IMG/VR virus record: IMGVR_UViG_3300029951_000028
Location: 1-62,958 of that record
DNA: 62,958 nucleotides
From: a virus
Reading direction: 5' to 3' (one strand)
Shown here: piece after piece, positions 6,007-60,392 of the stretch
Layout of the letters: each line of letters begins with the position of its first letter
Position numbering within the stretch: the stretch's first letter is position 1
Notes under the pieces: generated by a model
Database searches by the model: none
What the model was told of the DNA's origin: nothing
What the model saw: the letters and a program-made list of their open reading frames with translations, nothing else
Made by a program: the position numbers and the translations under genes

Positions 6007-9000
6007 GCGATGAACTCCCGAATTTTCATTTGGCCGCTGGTGGTCAGCGAGTTGCCGGTGACGCTCGTGGAGCCGCCGCTAGAGGTGAAATAGAGCGCCT
6101 CGACGCTCACCGAGAACGTGTGGGCCCCCGCGGACAGCGTGCCGCCCGGGATGAGCAACGTCAGGTCGAAGTTGTTTGACACCGACCAGTTGTAGGCCGA
6201 GCCGCCGATCTTCACGTTGCTGAGCGTGCCCACGATGATCGGCGCCGGGTTGGTCGTGGAATTGAACAGGCTGACGCCATCCGCGTACAGGTTCAGGATG
6301 AAGTCGTATGCAACGTTGCTGCCGATGTTGAGGAACGCGTTGATGTTGCACACGAGCAGCAGGTCGCCGCCGCCGACGGTGTACGTGAAGCCTGTGATGG
6401 CCCCGCTATAGATCGACCCCGCGCTGCCGGTAATCGTCGTCGTCGAATTCAGGTTGGCGCTGACTGTGCCCTTGGTGGCGGTGCCCACGGTGAGCGTGCC
6501 GCTGAAGGTGGCGTTGCCGTTGATCGTGAGCGCGCCCGCCGTCGTCACCGACATGGCGGTGGACGACATTGAGCCGTCTGCGTTGAACTCCCAGTAGCCT
6601 CCCGTGTTGACGTTGCCGAGAAGCAGCCCCTGCGGCCCGAGATAGAAGCCGCCGCCCGTCGTCGGCCACGACCACCCCGTGAAGTTGCCGCCTCGGATGT
6701 CCGCCCCGAAGATGTCGCCCGCCGTGATCGTGCCCAGGTTCGCGCTGATCGCGCTGAGCGAGCCGACCTTGAGCGCCGAGATGTACGGCAACCCCCACAC
6801 GGTGTTGCCCGTCGTCGGACTGTAGATGCCGTTGGTCTGGTAGACCGTCTGCCCGGCCGCATAGCCCGGCACGGTGGTGCTCCACGTCTCGCCCATGCCC
6901 CAGGTGTTCGCCGCGGGCAGGCTGTTGCCGCTCACGGTATCGGGGTTCGGCGAGCCGGCCGGCGTGCTGGACGATCCCACCACGGTGTAGGCGATGACCG
7001 ACTGCGCGCCGGTCGCGCCCGCTGCACCTGCTGGCGAGAATGCGAACGCCGCGCTCGAGCCGATCTCAAAGAAGCTGGAGTTCAAGTAGAACGTCTGCCC
7101 GGCCGTCGTGCTGCCCGACGCCACGCTGGTGTAGAACACGACACCGTTCTTCGTGTAGCGCACGTGCGTGTTGTCGTAGACCACGCTGAGCACGTCACCG
7201 ACGACGTACGAGCCGAAGCTGGCGATCAGCGTGCCGGCTTCATAGACCTGCACCGTTCCCGCGGCAAAGTAGGCCGCGTAGGTGACAGCGGCGAAGCCGG
7301 CGCCCCCCGTGTTGGTGGGACTCAGGCCGCCCATGACGTGGGTCGCGACGCTCGTGGCGGTCATGCTCATGACCGCGCCCCCCGCGTACGCCTGCGTGCT
7401 CAGGGCGTTGGTATCCCACGCGGTGCCCGAGCCGCCCGTCTTCGTCGCCGTGCCCCCCGTGATCGACATCACGCCGCCGGTCACGAGGGTGAAGGCGCCC
7501 GCACCGCCAGGGCCTGTTGCTCCCGTCGCGCCTGTTGCACCATTCGCGCCTGCGGCGCCGCGCGCCGTGATGCTGGCGCTCGTCCAGTTGAACGCGGTGG
7601 TGCTGTTGGCTGCCGAGTCGGTGATGGCGACGGCCGCGGCCCACAGGGTGAAGCCCGGGGACGGCGAGGTGCCGGGCGTGACCGTCCAGCCGCCCGGCGC
7701 CGAACCGAATGACGAAGTGAGCCAGGTATAGGTTGCGGAGCCGGCGGGGCCTGTCGGGATCGTGATGGCCCACGCGTAGACCGTGGCCTGCGCGGACTGC
7801 ACGCCGGTCGCACCGGTCGCACCGGTCGAACCCGTGGCACCTGCTGCGCCTGTCGGGCCCGCGGCGCCCGTGCTGCCAGTTGCGCCGACTGCGCCCGCCT
7901 TGGACTTGCTGGCGGTGAAGGTCTTCGCGACCGTCGGGAATCCGGCCTTCGTGCACGTGAGCGTCAGCGTGCCCGTGTCGTTGGCTGGGGCCAGCGCGGT
8001 GATGGTGTACGTGGGCTGCGAGCCGCCCGAGGTCAGGCCGGTCGACGTGCTCGGCGTGACGGCCCAGTTAGCAGTGTCGTCCACGCCGTTGATGAGGATG
8101 CTGAGCGTCGTGGTCGCGGCGGCGAAGCTTGTGACGTTGCCCGCCGCGTCAGACGGCAGCGCGATCGTGGAGAGCGTCAGCGAGGCGTTGACGCCGTTAG
8201 CCAGCGCGTTGGGCGCGGCGACGACAGCCGTGTAGCTGGCCGTGGGCACGCCCGAGAAGTTGTAGTGCCGGATCTGGAACTCGTAGTTGCCGGCGACCGT
8301 CGTGCTCCAGGAAAACGTGTTCGCGGCACCCGCGAAAAGCTGCACCATGCCCGTGCCGCCCCACGTGTTGCCCGTCGTGCCGACCGGGCCGACCTGGATG
8401 ACCGTCTGTTTGTAGTCGGCGTCGGTGTTCGGCGTCCACGAGAAGACGACCTGGCCGTTGACGATCGGGTATGCGACGCCCGAGACGGCGGTGGGCAACG
8501 CGGACTGGCCCTGCACCACCACGGAGACGTTGGGCGACCACGCGCTGGCAGTCACGGTGTTGCGCCCGCGCGCCTTCAGCGTGTAGGTGTGGCCGTCCTG
8601 CACCGGAGCGAGGAACACGGCCTGCGAGTCGCCCGAGAGGGTGACCGTGCTCCAGTTGCCGGTGGTGCTGGCCGCGTCGATGTACGACACGTCGATGAAC
8701 CCGGCGTTGATGACACTTTGATCGGTCACCGTGATCGGGACGTAGATCCGGCTGACGATGGTGCCGTCCGCTTGCTTGAGCAGCTGCGCGGTGCCGGTCA
8801 GCGGCGTGCCGAGCACGGGCACGCCGACGTTCCACGGGGACGGCAGCGTCGTCTTGGGTGCGTAGGCCAGCAGCGTGTAGCTGGAGTCCATCGCCCAAAT
8901 GCTGGCGCTGATGTACTTCAGCGAGAGCAGCACGAGGCCCTCGGGGGTGAACGACGTGTCGGTGACCTCGAATGTCTGCGCGACGAAGCCGAAGCGCGGC

Positions 9001-46676: not shown

Positions 46677-47828
46677 ATGGTCGACGCCGCCCACGCCCGG
46701 GTCAGCCCCTCCAGCCTGCACCGCATCCGCATCTGCCCGGCCTCGCTCGTCATGCAGGAGGCGTTCCCGCACCTCCCCTGGGAGGACGACGAGTCCAGCG
46801 CCGAGGGCACCTGCGCCCACTGGGTGCTGGCCCAGGCGCTCACGTCAGTTGTCCAGCTCGCCGACATGGAGGGCGAGCTCGATCCGGCCGGCACGCCCGT
46901 CACCGACGAGATGCTGGACGGCGTGGAGCTCGCGGTCGACGCCGTGGACGAGCTGCTGGCCAAGCACGGCGCCACGCGCGCGGATCTCGTGGTGGAGCAA
47001 CCCGTGGCCATCACGCGGATCCACGCGTCGTGCTGGGGGACGCCCGACATCCGTTTCTGGTCGCCGCGCACCGGCACGCTGGTCGTGATCGACTTCAAGT
47101 TCGGCTTCCGCTACGTCGAGGAGTTCGAGAACGACCAGCTCGTGGCCTACACGGTCGGCGAGATGGACACGCAGGGTGTGATCGACACCATGACGCCGTG
47201 CTCCAACGTCATCATCCAGCCGCGCGCCTACGGCAAGTCGCCCGTGCGCGAGTGGAACTTCATGGGCTCCGACGTGCGCGCCTTCGTCAACATCATGACG
47301 AGCGCCGTCGAGGCCGCACTGATGCCCAACCCGGTCGCGGTGGCCACGCCGGACGGCTGCCGCAACTGCCGCGCGCGCAACGGCTGCCCCACCAACCAGA
47401 TCGCGGGGCAGATCGCCATGTCGTACAGCAGCCATCCGCAGCCGCTGGACCTGCCGCCCGTGGCGCTGAGCACCGAGCTGCGGTTCGCGGAGCACCAGCT
47501 CGGTCTGCTGCAGTCCCGCGTGACAGGGCTCGAGGCGCAGGCCAAGTACCTCATTGAGCAAGGCCAGCGCCTGCCGCACCACGTGCTCAAGGCCGGCAGC
47601 GGTCGCACGGTGTGGCTCATGCCGGACGACCAGGTCGTGGCGATGGGCCCGGCCCTGGGGCTCAACCTGGCGAAGAAGGCCAAGCCCATCACCGTCAAGC
47701 AGGCGATCGAGGCGGGGCTCAACACCGCCCTGCTGCCCGCTCTCTCAACCACCCGCCCCGGCGCAATGAAGCTGGCGGCAGACGACGGGTCCACGGCTCG
47801 TCGCGTTTTCGGAGGATCCGCCACATGA
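46677..47828 (+). CDS. DUF2800 PD-(D/E)XK nuclease
   Basis: 383 residues. SPSSLHRIRICPASL start and AEGTCAHWVLAQAL, then VEQPVAI, CWGTPDIRFW (Asp near 124) and LVVIDFKFGFRYVEEFENDQL (Asp, Lys near 140-142) form the nuclease core. CRNCRARNGCP (about 228-240) may complete an iron-sulphur or zinc cluster as in RecB/Cas4-like enzymes. DUF2800 pairs with DUF2815 in phage recombination modules, a likely RecE-like role. Confidence 0.88.
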   Translation: MVDAAHARVSPSSLHRIRICPASLVMQEAFPHLPWEDDESSAEGTCAHWVLAQALTSVVQLADMEGELDPAGTPVTDEMLDGVELAVDAVDELLAKHGATRADLVVEQPVAITRIHASCWGTPDIRFWSPRTGTLVVIDFKFGFRYVEEFENDQLVAYTVGEMDTQGVIDTMTPCSNVIIQPRAYGKSPVREWNFMGSDVRAFVNIMTSAVEAALMPNPVAVATPDGCRNCRARNGCPTNQIAGQIAMSYSSHPQPLDLPPVALSTELRFAEHQLGLLQSRVTGLEAQAKYLIEQGQRLPHHVLKAGSGRTVWLMPDDQVVAMGPALGLNLAKKAKPITVKQAIEAGLNTALLPALSTTRPGAMKLAADDGSTARRVFGGSAT

Positions 47829-49146: not shown

Positions 49147-49379
49147 GCAACGCTCGAGAACAACTTTGGATCGGCGTCGCCATCGCAGTGGCGCGCTCGG
49201 AGGGCGCGAAGGACGCCGCGGCGCCGGCCCGCTGGGCTGACCGCGCGCTGGAGGCGTTCGACAAGCAATTCAAGCCGCCGGCCCCGCCCGCGTGCGCGGA
49301 CTGCGGCGCGGTGGGCGGCTCGCTCGCCTCGTGGGGCGGCGATTCGCGTTGGCACTGCCTCCCGAGATGCGCCAAATGA
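49143..49379 (+). CDS. Small zinc-binding protein
   Basis: 78 residues from a GTG overlapping the upstream stop. Helical first half; second half CADCGAVGG...WHCLPRCAK gives four Cys, probably one zinc site. Overlaps the methyltransferase start by 4 bases. Confidence 0.5.
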   Translation: MSNAREQLWIGVAIAVARSEGAKDAAAPARWADRALEAFDKQFKPPAPPACADCGAVGGSLASWGGDSRWHCLPRCAK

Positions 49380-50311
49380 ACACTGTTTTGTTTGGAGATT
49401 GCCGCCAGTCGCTGCGCACCTTCGCGGCGTTCGGCGTGAAGGCCCAGGTCTGCGTCACCAGCCCGCCATACTTCGGCCTGCGCTCCTACGGGGACGGCGC
49501 CGACGAGATGGGCAAGGAGGAGACGCCCGAGGAGTTCGTGCAGAACCTCGTGGAAGTGTTCCGCCTGGTGCGCGACGTGCTGGCCGACGACGGCGTGGTG
49601 TTCCTGAACATGGGAGACAGCTACGCTTCGCGCGGCGGCCAGGGCCCGCAGACCAACGCAGGCGCGATGCGCGGGTCGGGCGAGCAAGTCACGAAGTCGA
49701 ACCGCTTCCACGGGGGTGAGTACAAGGTCAAGGATCTGATCGGCGTCCCCTGGATGCTGGCCTTCGCCCTGCGCGCCGACGGCTGGTATCTGCGCCAAGA
49801 GATCATATGGGCCAAGGCGGAGAGCGGCGACGCGCGCGAGGGGCGCTGCATGCCTGAGTCGGTGCGCGACCGCTTCACCAAGGCGCACGAGCAGATTTTC
49901 CTACTGTCCAAGGCGCCCACGTACTACTTCGACGTTGACGCCGTGAAGGAGCCCGCGCAGGATTGGGGCAAGGCCCGCGATCGCACCAACATGCGCGGCG
50001 GCACCGACGACCCCAAGCTCAAGCACGGCGGCCTATCCAAGGTGAACCACCCGATGGGCAACCGCCGCAGCGTGTGGCGCGTCAACCCGGGCGGCTTCAA
50101 GGGCGCGCACTTCGCAGTGTTCCCCGCGGCGCTAGTCGAGCCGTGCGTGCTCTCGGGCTCGCGGCCTGGCGACATCGTGCTGGATCCCTTCATGGGCTCG
50201 GGCACCGTTGCCGGCGTGGCGCTGAAGCACGGCCGCCAGTACATCGGCTGCGAGTTGTACGAGTCGTATCGGGAATTGCAAGGCCAACGGATCGCTCAAA
50301 TCACAACTTGA
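49376..50311 (+). CDS. DNA N6-adenine / N4-cytosine methyltransferase
   Basis: 311 residues. Motif IV TSPPYFGLR (28-36) and motif I DPFMGSGTVAGVAL near 269-282 in beta-class order, plus VFLNMGDSY and YLRQEIIWAKAE typical of the family. TSPPY is compatible with m4C or m6A. Second methyltransferase of the phage; no restriction partner adjacent. Its stop codon overlaps the following -35 box. Confidence 0.9.
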   Translation: MNTVLFGDCRQSLRTFAAFGVKAQVCVTSPPYFGLRSYGDGADEMGKEETPEEFVQNLVEVFRLVRDVLADDGVVFLNMGDSYASRGGQGPQTNAGAMRGSGEQVTKSNRFHGGEYKVKDLIGVPWMLAFALRADGWYLRQEIIWAKAESGDAREGRCMPESVRDRFTKAHEQIFLLSKAPTYYFDVDAVKEPAQDWGKARDRTNMRGGTDDPKLKHGGLSKVNHPMGNRRSVWRVNPGGFKGAHFAVFPAALVEPCVLSGSRPGDIVLDPFMGSGTVAGVALKHGRQYIGCELYESYRELQGQRIAQITT

Positions 50312-50371: not shown

Positions 50372-51229
50372 ATGAGCGCAAAGCAAATTCTCTTCCCGCC
50401 CGGCCGTTACGTCGGCGGTTCCGTGTACGAGTCCAAGGCCGTCACGGATGACAACGACAAGCCGAAGTTCAAGGACGACGGCAAGCCGATGATCGAGTGG
50501 TCGTTCGCGGTCGCCATCCCCAAGGTCGGCGCCGACTGGAAGCAGACCCCGTGGGGCCAGCAGGTCGTGCTCGCGGCCACGGAAGGCTACCCGAACGGCG
50601 AGTACAACGCCGCCCGCTTCGCGTGGAAGATCACCGACGGCGACAGCACCGCGCCGAACAGCCGCGGCAACAAGCCGTGCGACCAAGAAGGCTTCCGCGG
50701 CTGCTGGGTGATCTGGTTCTCCAGCCGTGCGCAGGCCCCGCGCCTGACCGACAAGTTCGGCACGCAGGAGGGCAACCTGCTGTACGGTGACGGCGTGCAG
50801 CGCATCAAGCCGGGCCACGTGATCCAGGTGTTCGCGCTGGTCAAGGACAACGCGCCGGCCAAGTCCCCGGGCGTCTACATGAACTATGACGTGGTCGCCC
50901 ACACGGACGACACCACCCCGGTGATCGAACTGCGCTCCCTGACCGACACCAGCAAGGTCGGCTTCGGCGGTGGCGGTGCTCCCGCGGCCAACACGGCACC
51001 CGCCAACTACGGCACGACGGCTCCGGGCGCTCCCGCGCAAACGGTCGTCACGCCGCAGCCGGGCATGCTCGCCGCTCCGGGCGCGCCGATGGCTCCCTCC
51101 GCGCCGCTCGCTCCCGTGGCCCCGGTCGGCCCCGTCATGCTGCCGGCCGCCAACGGCGTCAGCTACGCGGCCTACAAGGCCAACGGCTGGACCGACGAGC
51201 AGCTCCGCCAGCACCAGCTGATGGCCTGA
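50372..51229 (+). CDS. DUF2815 single-stranded DNA-binding protein
   Basis: 285 residues. ILFPPGRYVGGSVYESKAVTD, then MIEWSFAVAIPKVG, NKPCDQEGFRGCWVIWFSS and GDGVQRIKPGHVIQVFALVK fit the OB-like DUF2815 family that serves as phage SSB. The C-terminal 90 residues are Pro/Ala/Gly-rich, then AAYKANGWTDEQLRQHQLMA, likely a protein-interaction tail in place of the acidic SSB tip. A separate strong promoter suits a protein needed in quantity. Confidence 0.85.
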   Translation: MSAKQILFPPGRYVGGSVYESKAVTDDNDKPKFKDDGKPMIEWSFAVAIPKVGADWKQTPWGQQVVLAATEGYPNGEYNAARFAWKITDGDSTAPNSRGNKPCDQEGFRGCWVIWFSSRAQAPRLTDKFGTQEGNLLYGDGVQRIKPGHVIQVFALVKDNAPAKSPGVYMNYDVVAHTDDTTPVIELRSLTDTSKVGFGGGGAPAANTAPANYGTTAPGAPAQTVVTPQPGMLAAPGAPMAPSAPLAPVAPVGPVMLPAANGVSYAAYKANGWTDEQLRQHQLMA

Positions 51230-53015: not shown

Positions 53016-53909
53016 ATGAGCGCGGGCGCCACGATGGAGTATCGCTACGGCAACAAGAACAACTGGCGCCGCCGCGTGTGGAACGCCGTGCGTGAGGTGA
53101 CGGACAACCCGCGGGACTCGCTGGTGTTGTTCCTCGCAGGGCGCGAGGCTGCAGACGTAGCCGTCGCTGCCGCCAAGGGGTTCCGCCCGGTGAACATGAT
53201 CGCGGTCGAGCGGGACCCGGAGACACTGCGTCATCTGCGTGCCAACGGGCAGCTGACCATCGACGGCGATCTCACCGGAGCGATGGCCGCGTGGCCTAAC
53301 ACCCGGCCCGTTTCGGTCGTCATCGCCGACTTCTGCTGCGGTTTGTCCCCTGTGCTCGCCTTCGAGCTAGTCACCGCGTGGATGACCCAGCCGTTTTACC
53401 GCGCAACCATGGTCGTCAACTTTCTGAGGGGCCGGGACGCTGCGAGCAATGAAATCCGGCAGGGCTGCATCGAGTGGCTGTCCGATCTTCGGCGCCGCCT
53501 GGATGAACTGGAGGACGACATGCTCGACCTCCACGACGGGGGCGCGCCGATTCCGCTGCACTACTGCCGCGCGCTCACAGAGAGTGATCCGAAGTCCCGT
53601 GCGCTGCATTTCTTTCTCATGACCGCAGGCCTCTACTTCGGCGAGCGCGACCCGAGCCTCTTTCAGATCGAGGCGATGTTCGCAATGCAACGCCCCTCGA
53701 TTTTTAGCTATCGGTCCACCGCCGGCAACCAAGTGTTCGACACCGTGGTCATAGCCGCCCCCGGTCGGAATTTGGACTCCGCAGGCATCAGCGGTGAACT
53801 GGCCGACGCAATCCACGCGGCGTCCATCAAAACGCGCCCGGCCCGAGGAGGCGTGAAACAGAGCATCTCCGCCATTCTCGCGCACCACACCCGTCGCACC
53901 CAATGCTGA
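53016..53909 (+). CDS. Rossmann-type, methyltransferase-like protein
   Basis: 297 residues. Glycine-poor Rossmann pattern: LVLFLAGREAADVAVAAAKG, then MIAVERDPETLRHLR (acidic end of strand 2, as for SAM binding), then VVIADFCCGLSPVLA. Lacks a clear catalytic motif (no PPY/PC). The sequence is less GC-biased than its neighbours, suggesting separate acquisition. Could modify nucleic acid or protein; this is inference. Confidence 0.5.
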   Translation: MSAGATMEYRYGNKNNWRRRVWNAVREVTDNPRDSLVLFLAGREAADVAVAAAKGFRPVNMIAVERDPETLRHLRANGQLTIDGDLTGAMAAWPNTRPVSVVIADFCCGLSPVLAFELVTAWMTQPFYRATMVVNFLRGRDAASNEIRQGCIEWLSDLRRRLDELEDDMLDLHDGGAPIPLHYCRALTESDPKSRALHFFLMTAGLYFGERDPSLFQIEAMFAMQRPSIFSYRSTAGNQVFDTVVIAAPGRNLDSAGISGELADAIHAASIKTRPARGGVKQSISAILAHHTRRTQC

Positions 53910-56900
53910 CCGCCCCGCCCCCTCCCCTCCGCACCATCATCGCCGGCAGCCGCGACATCACTGACCTGGCGCACGTGCGCGCCGCGATGGCGTCGTGTCC
54001 CTGGTTCCCGTCGGTCGTGGTGAGCGGCGCCGCGCGCGGCGTGGACAAGCTCGGCGAGCGGTGGGCGGCGGAGCGCGGCATCCCGGTCGAGAGCCACCCG
54101 GCCGACTGGGACAAGCACGGCAAGCACGCGGGGCACCTGCGCAACGCCGAGATGGCGCGCGCCTCCGACGGCCTCGTGGCGGTGTGGGACGGCCGCAGCC
54201 CCGGCACGCGCGACATGATCGACTCGGCACGCTCGATGGGCCTCCGCGTCCACGTCGTGCAGGTCGTGGTGCCGTACCCCGCCGCTCCACCCGCCCCGCG
54301 GGCGGTGCCGACGATCGACGCGCGGGACATCCCCGGGCTGCAGGCACCACTCCAGCCGATCTGCAAGCGTGCGCGCGAGGGCAACGGCATCGTGCCGCTG
54401 GACTGCCTGTTCGGGTGCGCCCACGGCTGCGGCAAGCCGGCGTTCGGGATCTCGCCCGCTGCCCCGCCGGCGCCGGTGCCGGTGCACAAGCTGCCGCGCG
54501 GCACGGTGCTGCGCGTGGGGCCGTCCTACGCCACGGTGAACGCCGAGTGCGACATGGAAGCGTTCTCCGAGGCCGGCTGGACGTGGGACGGCGAGCAGCG
54601 CAAGTGGCTCAAGCCCGAGGGCGCGTCGAAGCAGAAGAAGGGCCTGGAGATCGTCGGGGTGGATCTCTACGCGCGCCACCCGAGCGCGGCGATCCTGATG
54701 ATGGCCTACGACCTGAAGGACGGCCTCGGCTGGCGCGTGTGGCTCGAAGGGCAGCCGTTCCCCGCCGACCTGGCCGCGCACATCGCCGCCGGCAGGATCC
54801 TCGAAGCGCACAACTCCGGGTTCGAGCAGCGCATGTGGCTTCACGTCGGGGTCAAGAAGTACGGCTGGCCAGCGATGCCCGACCACCTGTGGCGCTGCAG
54901 CGCGGCGAAGGCGCGGGCCTACGCCTACCCCGGCAAGCTGGACGAGGTGGGCGCCGTGATGAAGCTCGACATCCAGAAGGATGAAGCGGGCAAGGCGCTC
55001 ATCGACAAGTTCACCATGCCGCGCAACCCGACGGCGCGCGATCCGCGCACGCGCGTGCTGCTCCAGTGGTCGGCCGACGTGGCCGCGGCGCGCGCTGCCT
55101 ACGACAAGCTCGGGATCCCGCACGGCTACCACGTGGAGGACATCGCGCAGCCCAAGGCGCCGCGCGCCAAGAAGGACCAGACGGTCGAGATGATCGTGCC
55201 GGGCCTGTGGCGCGTCACCACGGCCGGCGCTCTCACCGCTGAGACGGTGGCCAAGGACTACGCCGACACACTGGCGTTCGTGCGCTACTGCGTGCGCGAC
55301 ATCGAGTCCGAGGCGGAGGTGTCCGGTCGCTGCCCGGATCTGGAAGGGGACGAGCTGGAGTGGTGGCAGTTCGGCCAGGAGAGCAACGCGCACGGTATGC
55401 ACGTCGACCGCGTCGGGCTGGACAACTGCGCGGAGATCGTGCGGCAGTGCCTCGCGCGCTACGACGCCGAGCTCGTGCAGATCACGGGCGGCCTCAAGTC
55501 CAGCCAGGTCAAGAAGATCACCGAGTGGCTCGCCGCGCGCGGCCTCCACATGGCGTCGCTGGACGAGGAGCACGTCACCGAGGCGCTGGAGCGCACCGAC
55601 CTGACGCCCGAGTGCCGCCGCGTGCTGGAGATCCGCGCCGCGGCCGGCAGCGCCTCGGTCAAGAAGGTGTTCGCGATCGAGAACACTCTGAGCCCCGACA
55701 ACCGGCTCCGCGACCTCTACATCATCAACGGGGCGCGCACGGGGCGCGATACCGGCGTCGGCGCGCAGCCCGCCAACCTGCCGAGCTACGGCCCCGCGCC
55801 GCACAAGTGCGCGTGCGGGACGTTCTTCGCCGGCCGCTTCTCCTGCCCGACGTGCAACACGCCGCTCGCCCCTGGCGCGAAGCCGGGCGAGTGGAGCCTG
55901 GCGTGCGCGGAGCAGGCGCTCGAGCTGTTCAAGAAACGCAGCTTGGCCGAGGTGGAGCGGGTGTGGGGCGTGGGCAATGCGCTGCACGCCGTCGCCGGCT
56001 GCCTGCGCGGCCTGTTCTGCGCGGCGCCGGGGCACGACCTGATCTCGTCCGACTACAACTCCATCGAGGCTGTGGCCATGGCGATGGTGTCGGGCGAGAA
56101 GTGGCGCATCGACACGTTCAACGGCCACGGCAAGATTTACGAAGCGTCGGCCGCGGCGATGTTCAAGATCCCGTTCGAGGACTTCATGTACCACCGGGGG
56201 TACACCCCGGAGCAGCTCAAGCAGCCCGAGTGGTGGAAGCAGGATCCGGCGATCCCCGGCAAGACGCACCACCCGCTGCGCAAGACTGGCAAGATTGCCG
56301 AGCTGGCGTTCGGCTTCCAGGGCGGCCTCGGTTCGGCCAATGCGTTCGGCATGCCGGGCAACGACGCGGAGAAGACGCAGAACGTGCGCGACTGGCGCAA
56401 CGTGAGTCCGAGCATCGAATGGCTGTGGGGTGGGCAGACGCAGGGCAAGGCCAACGCCATCCGCGGCCACGGCAGCAAGTGGGACAAGACGCCGTTCCTG
56501 TTCGGCGTGGAAGGCGCGTTCCTCAACGCCATCCGCCACGAGGGTGTCGAGTTCAAAATCAACCGGCTCGACAATACCTATACCGGGTTCTCCTATACCC
56601 GCCACGGCGACGTGATTTGGGCGCTGCTGCCGAGCGGTCGATATCTCAAGTACCACGCGGCGCGCGAGGGCGCCGGCAAGTGGGAAGGCCAAGCCGGCAT
56701 GTCCTACGAGGGCAAGAACACTAATCCGAAGAACGGGCCGGTGGGCTGGATCCGCATGGATACCTGGGGCGGTCGCCTCGTTGAGAATCTGATCCAGGCA
56801 ATTTGCCGAGACATCTTAAAAGAAGCTGTCTTGCGCTTGCGAAAAGCCGGCTACACCACCGTTATGCGCACTTATGACGAAGTCGTCTGCGAGATACTCA

Positions 56901-57019
56901 AGGGGTTTGGCAGCCACGAGGAGTTCGAGCGGATCGTGGAGATTCGCCCCTGGTGGGCGCCTGATTGGCCGATCCGGGCGCCGGACTCCTGGCGGGGGCT
57001 GCGCTACCGCAAAGCGTGA
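53903..57019 (+). CDS. SLOG-domain / family A DNA polymerase fusion
   Basis: 1038 residues. Residues 10-115 are a SLOG (DUF2493/YspA-like) domain: IIAGSRDITD, VVSGAARGVDKLGERW, LVAVWDGRSPGTRDM. A Pro linker leads to a short GWTWDGEQRKWL module. A 3'-5' exonuclease-like region (about 245-400; EIVGVDLYARHPSA, EAHNSGFEQRM) follows, but the first metal motif (FDxET) is replaced by a Lys-rich stretch, so proofreading is doubtful. Polymerase motifs: A SSDYNSIE (near 715), B TGKIAELAFGF (near 795-806), C TYDEVVCE (near 990). A CxC...CxxC zinc insert lies near 635-655. Confidence 0.88.
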   Translation: MLTAPPPPLRTIIAGSRDITDLAHVRAAMASCPWFPSVVVSGAARGVDKLGERWAAERGIPVESHPADWDKHGKHAGHLRNAEMARASDGLVAVWDGRSPGTRDMIDSARSMGLRVHVVQVVVPYPAAPPAPRAVPTIDARDIPGLQAPLQPICKRAREGNGIVPLDCLFGCAHGCGKPAFGISPAAPPAPVPVHKLPRGTVLRVGPSYATVNAECDMEAFSEAGWTWDGEQRKWLKPEGASKQKKGLEIVGVDLYARHPSAAILMMAYDLKDGLGWRVWLEGQPFPADLAAHIAAGRILEAHNSGFEQRMWLHVGVKKYGWPAMPDHLWRCSAAKARAYAYPGKLDEVGAVMKLDIQKDEAGKALIDKFTMPRNPTARDPRTRVLLQWSADVAAARAAYDKLGIPHGYHVEDIAQPKAPRAKKDQTVEMIVPGLWRVTTAGALTAETVAKDYADTLAFVRYCVRDIESEAEVSGRCPDLEGDELEWWQFGQESNAHGMHVDRVGLDNCAEIVRQCLARYDAELVQITGGLKSSQVKKITEWLAARGLHMASLDEEHVTEALERTDLTPECRRVLEIRAAAGSASVKKVFAIENTLSPDNRLRDLYIINGARTGRDTGVGAQPANLPSYGPAPHKCACGTFFAGRFSCPTCNTPLAPGAKPGEWSLACAEQALELFKKRSLAEVERVWGVGNALHAVAGCLRGLFCAAPGHDLISSDYNSIEAVAMAMVSGEKWRIDTFNGHGKIYEASAAAMFKIPFEDFMYHRGYTPEQLKQPEWWKQDPAIPGKTHHPLRKTGKIAELAFGFQGGLGSANAFGMPGNDAEKTQNVRDWRNVSPSIEWLWGGQTQGKANAIRGHGSKWDKTPFLFGVEGAFLNAIRHEGVEFKINRLDNTYTGFSYTRHGDVIWALLPSGRYLKYHAAREGAGKWEGQAGMSYEGKNTNPKNGPVGWIRMDTWGGRLVENLIQAICRDILKEAVLRLRKAGYTTVMRTYDEVVCEILKGFGSHEEFERIVEIRPWWAPDWPIRAPDSWRGLRYRKA

Positions 57020-59007: not shown

Positions 59008-59226
59008 ATGTGGAGCGACAGCGTCATGGAGGAGCACCTCAACTTGGACGGGCACCTTCGGCACACACGCGTGTCGGCCCGGTTCGCCCCGGACGGCCGC
59101 GTGGCCGAGATGCACCGCGTGGTTGAGTGGGAGATGTCGGATGCTCACTGGGTCGAGCACGCTGCGCCGTGGAGCCACCGACTGCATGAAGCCACCGCGT
59201 GGGCGCGGCAGGCCGGGGTGCTCTAG
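59008..59226 (+). CDS. Small hypothetical protein facing the integrase
   Basis: 72 residues, His/Trp/Glu-rich. Its stop overlaps the integrase stop on the other strand by 3 bases (tail-to-tail), with no terminator visible between. Confidence 0.5.
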   Translation: MWSDSVMEEHLNLDGHLRHTRVSARFAPDGRVAEMHRVVEWEMSDAHWVEHAAPWSHRLHEATAWARQAGVL

Positions 59227-60392
59227 TCCGGCAGCCGCGCCGCGAGATCCTCGCCACGCAGCGAGGCGTAGCGCAGCGCCAGGTTGGTATTTGTCCAGCC
59301 CATCACGCGGCAGATGGCGATGTCGTCGTAGACCCACATGCCGCGCGGATCGCGCAGCTCGAACCACCGGCAGGTCGCCTCGTGGCGCAGGTCGTGCTCG
59401 GTGAAGTCGGGCAGGCCGGCGAAGTCGAACAGCACCGCGAACCGCCGCGACAGCCGCGCCGTGGTCTGCTTCAGCGTCAGGTCATCGTTCTCGCCGTTCC
59501 ACAGCGTGGGGAACAGCAGGCCGCCCCGCTCAATCGCCGGTCGCAGCCGATCCACCAGCACGCGCTTCATCGGCACGGTGCGCGGCTTGATGACGCCGCG
59601 GTGCCCCTTCGTGCCATCCACGTGGATGACCCGCTTGTCGAGATCGACTTGGCCAGCCCGCAGCCGGTACGCCTCGCGCAGCCGCAGGCCGGTGTCCACG
59701 ATTAGGTCGAACAGCATCGTGAACTCGGGGTCGACCGCCAGCGCGCGCTCGCGCCCCTCCCGCTTCTCGCCGGCCAGCGCGCGCCGCACCCGTGCCTCGC
59801 CGTCCGCGTCGAGCCGGTGGTCGCGCTGCCGATCGCGCTTCACCTCGAGGCCCTGCGCCGCCAGCACCTCCGCCTCGGGCTTGGTGTACAGGCTGTAGCC
59901 GTCGGGTAGCAGGTCGAACGGATTGGCCGGCACGCGCTCGCCGGCCGCCGTGGCACGGTTGAGGTGCCACTGCAGCACGCGCGACAGGACGCCCACGCGT
60001 TTGCGGATGCTGGACGGTGCGAGGTGGTGCTCGGGCTTGCGGAGGCCGGCGATGTAGCCCTCGGCCCAGGGGAACGTGATCCCGGAGATGCGCACCAGCG
60101 CCACCTCGCCGCGCACCACGCGCAGCAGGTCGGCGTCGGACGACGTGATGGGGGCGAGTTGCTCGTACTCGCTGATGACCTGGGTCAGCAACGGGTCGGT
60201 GCGCCGGCCTGGCGCCTCGGGCACCAAGAGCTCGGACGGCACCACGCCGCGCGCGAGCAGCGCCATCAACTTGTCGCCGTAGCCGCGCGCGTCGGCGTCG
60301 GACTCGGCGGTGTAGAAGAACGGCTTCTCCAGCAGGGCGTGCGTGACGCGCAGCTGGAACTTCGCGCCACGGCGCTGTACGTTGATCCCCAT
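59223..60392 (-). CDS. int: Tyrosine integrase
   Basis: 389 residues. N-terminal arm-binding-like region (INVQRRGAKFQLRV) and a core-binding domain (SSIRKRVGVLSRVLQWHL). Catalytic set: Arg in DTGLRLREAYRLR, Lys near VDGTKGHRG, His-x-x-Arg in TEHDLRHEATCRWF, and MGWTNTNLALRYASL with the Trp position and nucleophile Tyr. Complete length for a phage integrase. Directly beside a tRNA-derived attP, so it should integrate in a tRNA-Cys gene. Confidence 0.95.
   Translation of the reverse strand: MGINVQRRGAKFQLRVTHALLEKPFFYTAESDADARGYGDKLMALLARGVVPSELLVPEAPGRRTDPLLTQVISEYEQLAPITSSDADLLRVVRGEVALVRISGITFPWAEGYIAGLRKPEHHLAPSSIRKRVGVLSRVLQWHLNRATAAGERVPANPFDLLPDGYSLYTKPEAEVLAAQGLEVKRDRQRDHRLDADGEARVRRALAGEKREGRERALAVDPEFTMLFDLIVDTGLRLREAYRLRAGQVDLDKRVIHVDGTKGHRGVIKPRTVPMKRVLVDRLRPAIERGGLLFPTLWNGENDDLTLKQTTARLSRRFAVLFDFAGLPDFTEHDLRHEATCRWFELRDPRGMWVYDDIAICRVMGWTNTNLALRYASLRGEDLAARLPD

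Follow-up and report, generated by a model that had tools for sequence, protein, structure and literature searches.

A phage family A DNA polymerase with an optional N-terminal SLOG domain and a predicted proofreading site

We analyzed a 62,958-base virus record, IMGVR_UViG_3300029951_000028 (the window), in which the gene at 53903-57019 encodes a YAcAr/YspA-type SLOG domain and a family A DNA polymerase (PolA) in one protein. We read this protein, with a probability of roughly 0.5, as a replicative PolA with a predicted active exonuclease and a predicted active polymerase, carrying an optional, putatively ligand-binding SLOG domain at its N-terminus. The fusion, the intact motifs, the conserved pocket residues of the SLOG domain, and the recurrence and optionality of this module are directly supported by the sequences compared; a nucleotide-sensing role for the SLOG domain in the fusion is possible.

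Results

A SLOG domain and a DNA polymerase in one reading frame

The initial annotation of the window had reported a SLOG domain fused to PolA in a single frame at exactly these coordinates, and both points were borne out by domain matches on either side of one continuous open reading frame (ORF). Its ATG overlaps the stop codon of the preceding gene (ATGCTGA). The GC content at third codon positions (GC3) is 0.92-1.0 across the SLOG, linker and exonuclease regions and reaches 0.7 only near the far C-terminus, in a window of 67% GC. Because GC3 stays high, we treat the ORF as a single coding sequence and reject a frameshift or an erroneous merger of two genes, which the initial annotation had named as a possible refutation. 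The features of the gene are listed below, with conservation counts from an alignment of 69 sequences (a second alignment, n = 49, gives the same result for the exonuclease residues) and model confidence as the predicted local distance difference test score (pLDDT).

53903..57019, plus strand: SLOG-PolA fusion gene, 1038 residues, a single ORF open over its whole length with continuous GC3
53924..54268, plus strand: YAcAr/YspA-type SLOG domain, residues 8-122, from PF10686, PHROG 289, invariant residues and pLDDT
54269..54493, plus strand: linker, residues 123-197, modeled with low confidence (pLDDT about 36-61 at residues 121-190)
54551..54577, plus strand: Exo I motif D217-M-E219 (DMEAFSEAG), conserved D/E in the alignment, in strand 214-221
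54809..54826, plus strand: Exo II motif HNSGFE (N304, E308), Glu conserved in 68/68 aligned sequences
55064..55228, plus strand: lineage-specific insert of about 55 residues inside the exonuclease domain, a gap in relatives (pLDDT <50 at 389-441)
55286..55300, plus strand: Exo III motif Y462-CVR-D466, Y and D in 69/69, in helix 446-476
55808..55855, plus strand: possible zinc ribbon CxC..CxxC between thumb and palm, Cys in about 52/69 aligned sequences
56048..56068, plus strand: polymerase motif A (SDYNSIE), D717 in 69/69 and E722 in 66/69
56279..56323, plus strand: polymerase motif B (RKTGKIAELAFGFQG), K797 in 69/69 and R793 in 63/69
56873..56881, plus strand: polymerase motif C (YDE), D and E in 69/69, Y in 13 and H in 56

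The polymerase part matches PHROG 17 (E = 2e-63), and Pfam PF00476 only below its gathering score. All six family A residues (D717, E722, R793, K797, D992 and E993) are present. The annotation of motifs A, B and C as intact thus held for A and for B, which includes RKTGKIAEL; motif C keeps its Asp and Glu but reads YDE, not the usual HDE. Most of the aligned sequences lacking the zinc-ribbon cysteines have a gap in that region. Judging from the model, the linker is probably flexible, and its C-terminal end merges into the ancestral PolA N-terminus (KLPRGTVLRVG), which is homologous to the N-termini of unfused PolA proteins.

The exonuclease site is retained

The initial annotation had described the FDxET position of the exonuclease as replaced by a Lys-rich stretch, and had proposed a non-proofreading replicase that gained a SLOG domain in its place. 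In our alignment, the window's CDMEAFSEAGW matches the xDFETYSEAGY of its relatives column for column, and every one of the 68 aligned sequences with letters there keeps D217 and E219; the flanking residues alone diverge (DMEA for DFET). The true Exo I motif therefore lies 20-25 residues upstream of the Lys-rich KPEGASKQKKG, which sits in a segment that varies across the family and is likely the place where Exo I had been sought. Loss of Exo I is ruled out by this alignment. HNSGFE and the later exonuclease motifs, which the annotation had recognized, are indeed kept. E308 of Exo II stands where the Klenow fragment has Asp (its metal ligands are Asp355, Asp424 and Asp501; PMC9629493), a feature of the whole family. 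All residues expected of a DEDDy-type 3′-5′ exonuclease (D217, E219, E308, Y462 and D466) are thus present, and from these residues we predict a proofreading replicase. The lineage-specific insert, which is predicted to be disordered, lies between Exo II and Exo III.

Structure prediction, which had been proposed as a check, modeled the exonuclease domain with confidence. The final AlphaFold model, built on an alignment of 49 full-length polymerases, has a mean pLDDT of 86.8, with about 90 or higher at residues 200-380. It places D217 and E219 in the strand and Y462 and D466 in the helix given above, and E308 near the start of helix 305-317. The best fold matches in the PDB were phage G20c PolI, mycobacterial Pol1, Klenow and phiVC8 DpoZ. 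An earlier alignment that also included 39 standalone SLOG sequences had given pLDDT <50 over most of residues 150-441; this poor exonuclease model was most likely an alignment artefact, and it was repaired with full-length polymerases.

The SLOG domain keeps its pocket residues and lacks the LOG catalytic Glu

The SLOG-type assignment of the N-terminus was upheld by matches of residues 10-72 to Pfam PF10686, YAcAr (E = 8e-14; 51.6 bits against a gathering cut-off of 28.2), and of residues 10-121 to PHROG 289 (E = 3e-27). The domain was modeled with pLDDT mostly of 77-96 in the polymerase-based model and about 95 with a SLOG-rich alignment. The conserved YAcAr residues GxR, GxAxGxD, W, AGxxRNxxM and WDGxSxGT are all found. 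Across 82 standalone phage SLOGs, 13 residues are fully invariant, and the window keeps all 13 (G15, R17, G42, A44, G46, D48, W69, A76, G77, R80, N81, M84 and G101). A search of PDB sequences with the SLOG profile returned only beta-propeller and other chance matches.

In LOG phosphoribohydrolases, the motif PGGxGTxxE ends in the catalytic Glu (PMC4979012). The window instead reads WDGRSPGTRDM, with Met105 at the position of this Glu, as have 96% of the standalone SLOGs. Because the invariant residues are kept and the LOG catalytic Glu is absent, the sequence favors a ligand-binding accessory role, or some other chemistry, over hydrolysis of the LOG type.

SLOG-PolA is a minority form found in several phages

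Other PolA proteins with an N-terminal SLOG, which the initial annotation had proposed to look for, were found in Vibrio, Pseudoalteromonas and metagenomic phages. Among phage records, the same SLOG-exonuclease-polymerase ORF occurs in Vibrio phages 367.14 and 97.13 and Pseudoalteromonas phage PY6; among IMG/VR contigs, the architecture occurs in loci L045, L260, L262, L263 and L289. Besides the window, the SLOG-PolA loci in our set are L002/L003, L004 and these five. A single-protein scan of viral contigs detected no relative, but an alignment-based scan did. Of 257 loci encoding a polymerase of this family or one more distantly related, some of them from contigs entered twice, only 15 (window and duplicates counted) were found to have a SLOG fused to the polymerase or next to it; one IMG/VR scan ranked matches by likeness to a SLOG-fused query, so that 15/257 is not an unbiased frequency. 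SLOG-PolA is a minority form among its relatives. Most phage SLOGs of the YAcAr type are small standalone proteins (1174 phage records matched).

Closely related polymerase genes with and without SLOG at the 5′ end

Two pairs of loci have polymerase genes that are about 88-89% identical and differ in the SLOG domain. In the first, the SLOG-bearing L260 and the SLOG-free L011 (Oceanospirillum phage PD0307) share DNA that is 88-89% identical on both flanks. L260 has about 365 bases of SLOG between '...GGGGGCCGCTAATG' and 'CCGACTATTGACTTCGAGACC', both shared with L011, which has about 11 bases there; the SLOG stretch in L260 is bounded by a shared TAATG and a shared CCGACTATTGACTTCGAG (about 363 nt). 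The second pair is L262 (with SLOG) and Aeromonas phage AeroV_348 (L006, without). Because such similar genes differ in it, SLOG behaves, at the sequence level, as an optional 5′ module of the polymerase gene. In L284, a different small ORF occupies the slot that SLOG fills in L260. The polymerase tree calls for at least 7 switches in SLOG state, which it does not resolve into gains and losses. Pairs with and without SLOG both retain DFET or DFEV at Exo I, which speaks against SLOG as a substitute for the exonuclease. Since the proofreading site is intact and a complete PolA N-terminus follows the SLOG domain, we regard SLOG as an addition, not a replacement.

The window polymerase clusters with L041, L121 and L144 (Shimodaira-Hasegawa-like approximate likelihood ratio support 92), in which a separate gene immediately upstream encodes SLOG. 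In L041 (the contig of L137), L121, L144 and L146, the family A polymerase is split at homologous sites into two genes, an exonuclease and thumb part and a fingers/palm part, with SLOG just upstream. The genes between the halves differ, with a DNA methyltransferase in L144 and unrelated small ORFs in L121 and L041. Split PolA genes have been reported for the OM43 phages MEP401/402 (PMC10580990).

A group of eight fused SLOGs from other loci (support 92; 86/79 in a second tree) is marked by M109 and K114. In contrast, the window SLOG has A109 and L114, as in standalone SLOGs, which suggests that it was recruited separately. This is only a suggestion because an approximately unbiased test did not reject a single clade of fused SLOGs (p = 0.46).

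Comparison with known systems

Phage PolA proteins with accessory domains and SLOG fusions to nucleic-acid enzymes are already known. The PHROG 17 polymerases of, for example, Stenotrophomonas phage B2, Aeromonas phage AeroV_348 and Shewanella phage SppYZU01 share the exonuclease-polymerase order, the motifs and the Exo II Glu with the window, and most have the Cys-rich insert; they are about 39-49% identical to it in the alignment, and these three lack both the N-terminal SLOG and the 55-residue exonuclease insert. The proteins of Vibrio phages 367.14 and 97.13 and Pseudoalteromonas phage vB_Psp_PY6 have the window's architecture in one ORF, but belong to the other SLOG subgroup (M109, K114), have a shorter linker and read DFET at Exo I; 97.13 also has an intein-like insert at motif B. 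The two Vibrio phage records leave the protein unannotated, and PY6 calls it 'DNA polymerase'. By identity, the closest relatives of the window SLOG are standalone YAcAr/DUF2493 SLOGs, which have the same conserved pocket residues. The SLOG of Achromobacter phage AXY1, 56% identical to that of the window, is unfused, with no annotated polymerase within 8 kb.

Iyer and colleagues described sporadic phage SLOG fusions to 3′-5′ exonuclease, HNH, HTH, superfamily 1 helicase and guanylate kinase domains (PMC9503650). These resemble the window in joining SLOG to a nucleic-acid enzyme, and a PolA fusion is not named in the accessible part of that paper. DNA polymerases of HMO-2011-type phages also combine PolA with an accessory domain, but the domain there is a partial DnaJ rather than a SLOG, and it separates the exonuclease from the polymerase instead of lying at the N-terminus (PMC9038755). 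We found no paper describing SLOG-PolA in the literature searched, which leaves out most subscription journals.

Phage context and neighboring genes

The window belongs to a Caudoviricetes phage and contains terminase, portal, major head, tape-measure, tail-fiber and primase genes. An integrase gene suggests that the phage is temperate. The terminase is nearest to that of Pseudomonas phage vB_PaS_IME307 (59%), too distant for naming a host, and a DNA search of phage records with the right-hand 25 kb gave no close match. The integrase and two members of the gene's replication cluster are:

59223-60392, minus strand: tyrosine integrase gene, from Pfam and PHROG profile matches
50372..51229, plus strand: Gp2.5-like single-stranded DNA-binding/annealing protein (phrog_7011, E = 3e-49)
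46677..47828, plus strand: Cas4-like (DUF2800) exonuclease (PF10926, E = 4e-29; phrog_69)

The gene directly upstream of the fusion (53016-53909, 297 residues) has no Pfam, PHROG or PADLOC match. Its sequence resembles that of a class I methyltransferase (LVLFLAGREAADVAVAAAKGF...AVERDPETL), and Enterobacter phage Mulvp2 (L012) has an annotated S-adenosylmethionine-dependent methyltransferase in the same position. Similar DNA methyltransferases occur in the window at 49292-50311, upstream of the single-stranded DNA-binding protein gene, and in L144 at 6183-7193, between the polymerase halves, which suggests a mobile gene.

Several further observations concern the relatives. In-frame inserts of about 860 bases lie at motif B in L003 (4933-5790; Vibrio phage 97.13) and L045 (about 6350-7206); they look intein-like (Cys start, HN-S end), and the close relatives L002 and L263 lack them. 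A 3′-5′ exoribonuclease-type gene, so annotated in L011, directly precedes the polymerase in L011 (1336-2007), L284 (3198-3872), L261 (326-991) and L260 (upstream of 4001), and its stop overlaps the polymerase start (TAATG) in L260 and L011. Phage TPWB-08 encodes a different SLOG-like protein, annotated as a GTP-binding domain, two genes downstream of an unfused PolA (L007, 6170-6634).

Discussion

In the reading that we favor, the SLOG pocket would bind a small ligand of nucleotide type. The flexible linker would let SLOG either modulate the polymerase or bring its ligand-binding function to the replication fork, and a nucleotide signal would thereby be coupled to replication or to the protection of replication. 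By analogy, our guess for the ligand would be ADP-ribose or derivatives of nicotinamide adenine dinucleotide (NAD); phage SLOG fusions have been proposed to act as sensors in regulation by NAD/ADP-ribose signals (PMC9503650). Four points weigh against this picture. The YAcAr SLOG family has no known ligand or activity. The linker is predicted to be flexible, and the confidence estimates of the model are local (pLDDT). The Glu at Exo II in place of the Klenow Asp keeps exonuclease activity a prediction. Finally, near-identical polymerases exist without SLOG, and for this reason SLOG is unlikely to be essential to replication. In a more specific and rather doubtful version, SLOG would be a plug-in sensor of a host immune nucleotide signal (e.g. 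an ADP-ribose derivative) that switches or protects the replicase in cis and was gained more than once.

Alternatively, SLOG may be a counter-defense or nucleotide-processing unit, a sponge or a hydrolase of, for example, cyclic ADP-ribose isomers, riding on an abundant early protein and leaving the polymerase unregulated. We consider this a possible but less likely account. Most phage SLOGs of this type are small and standalone, viral SLOGs have been proposed to degrade or sense ADP-ribose signals (PMC9503650), and SLOG is gained or lost cleanly with the polymerase unchanged. However, PADLOC found no convincing defense match for the fusion protein or the two genes upstream, Met105 disfavors LOG-like hydrolysis, and in the loci examined SLOG is always N-terminal to, or just upstream of, this polymerase.

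SLOG could also act without a small ligand, as a DprA-like Rossmann-fold contact to single-stranded DNA that aids processivity or loading. DprA/Smf, a member of the SLOG superfamily, is described as a single-stranded DNA-binding receptor (PMC7824862), and the window SLOG is fused to a polymerase with a Gp2.5-like protein nearby. Yet standalone and fused SLOGs alike keep the residues of a typical small-ligand site (GxR, GxAxGxD, RNxxM and WDGxSxGT), and near-identical polymerases do without SLOG, which makes this account improbable. A chance read-through of a SLOG gene into PolA, with the two parts functionally unrelated, would fit the rarity of the fusion among relatives and its repeated gain or loss, but is very unlikely given that SLOG and PolA are repeatedly joined or adjacent, in a constant order, and that the SLOG domains stay conserved. 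Least credible is a replicase without proofreading, with SLOG in place of the exonuclease function. The divergent Exo I context and the Exo II Glu speak for it; against it stand a confidently modeled domain whose five catalytic residues are conserved as in every aligned homolog, and relatives that keep DFET or DFEV with or without SLOG.

Our analysis thus corrects a wrong prediction of absent proofreading. The pairs L260/L011 and L262/L006 offer a ready comparison of nearly the same polymerase with and without SLOG. Even if SLOG is a mere tether, the 5′ end of the polymerase gene acts as a slot in which a domain is gained and lost; if SLOG binds a signal, a phage replication enzyme would be tied directly to nucleotide signaling.

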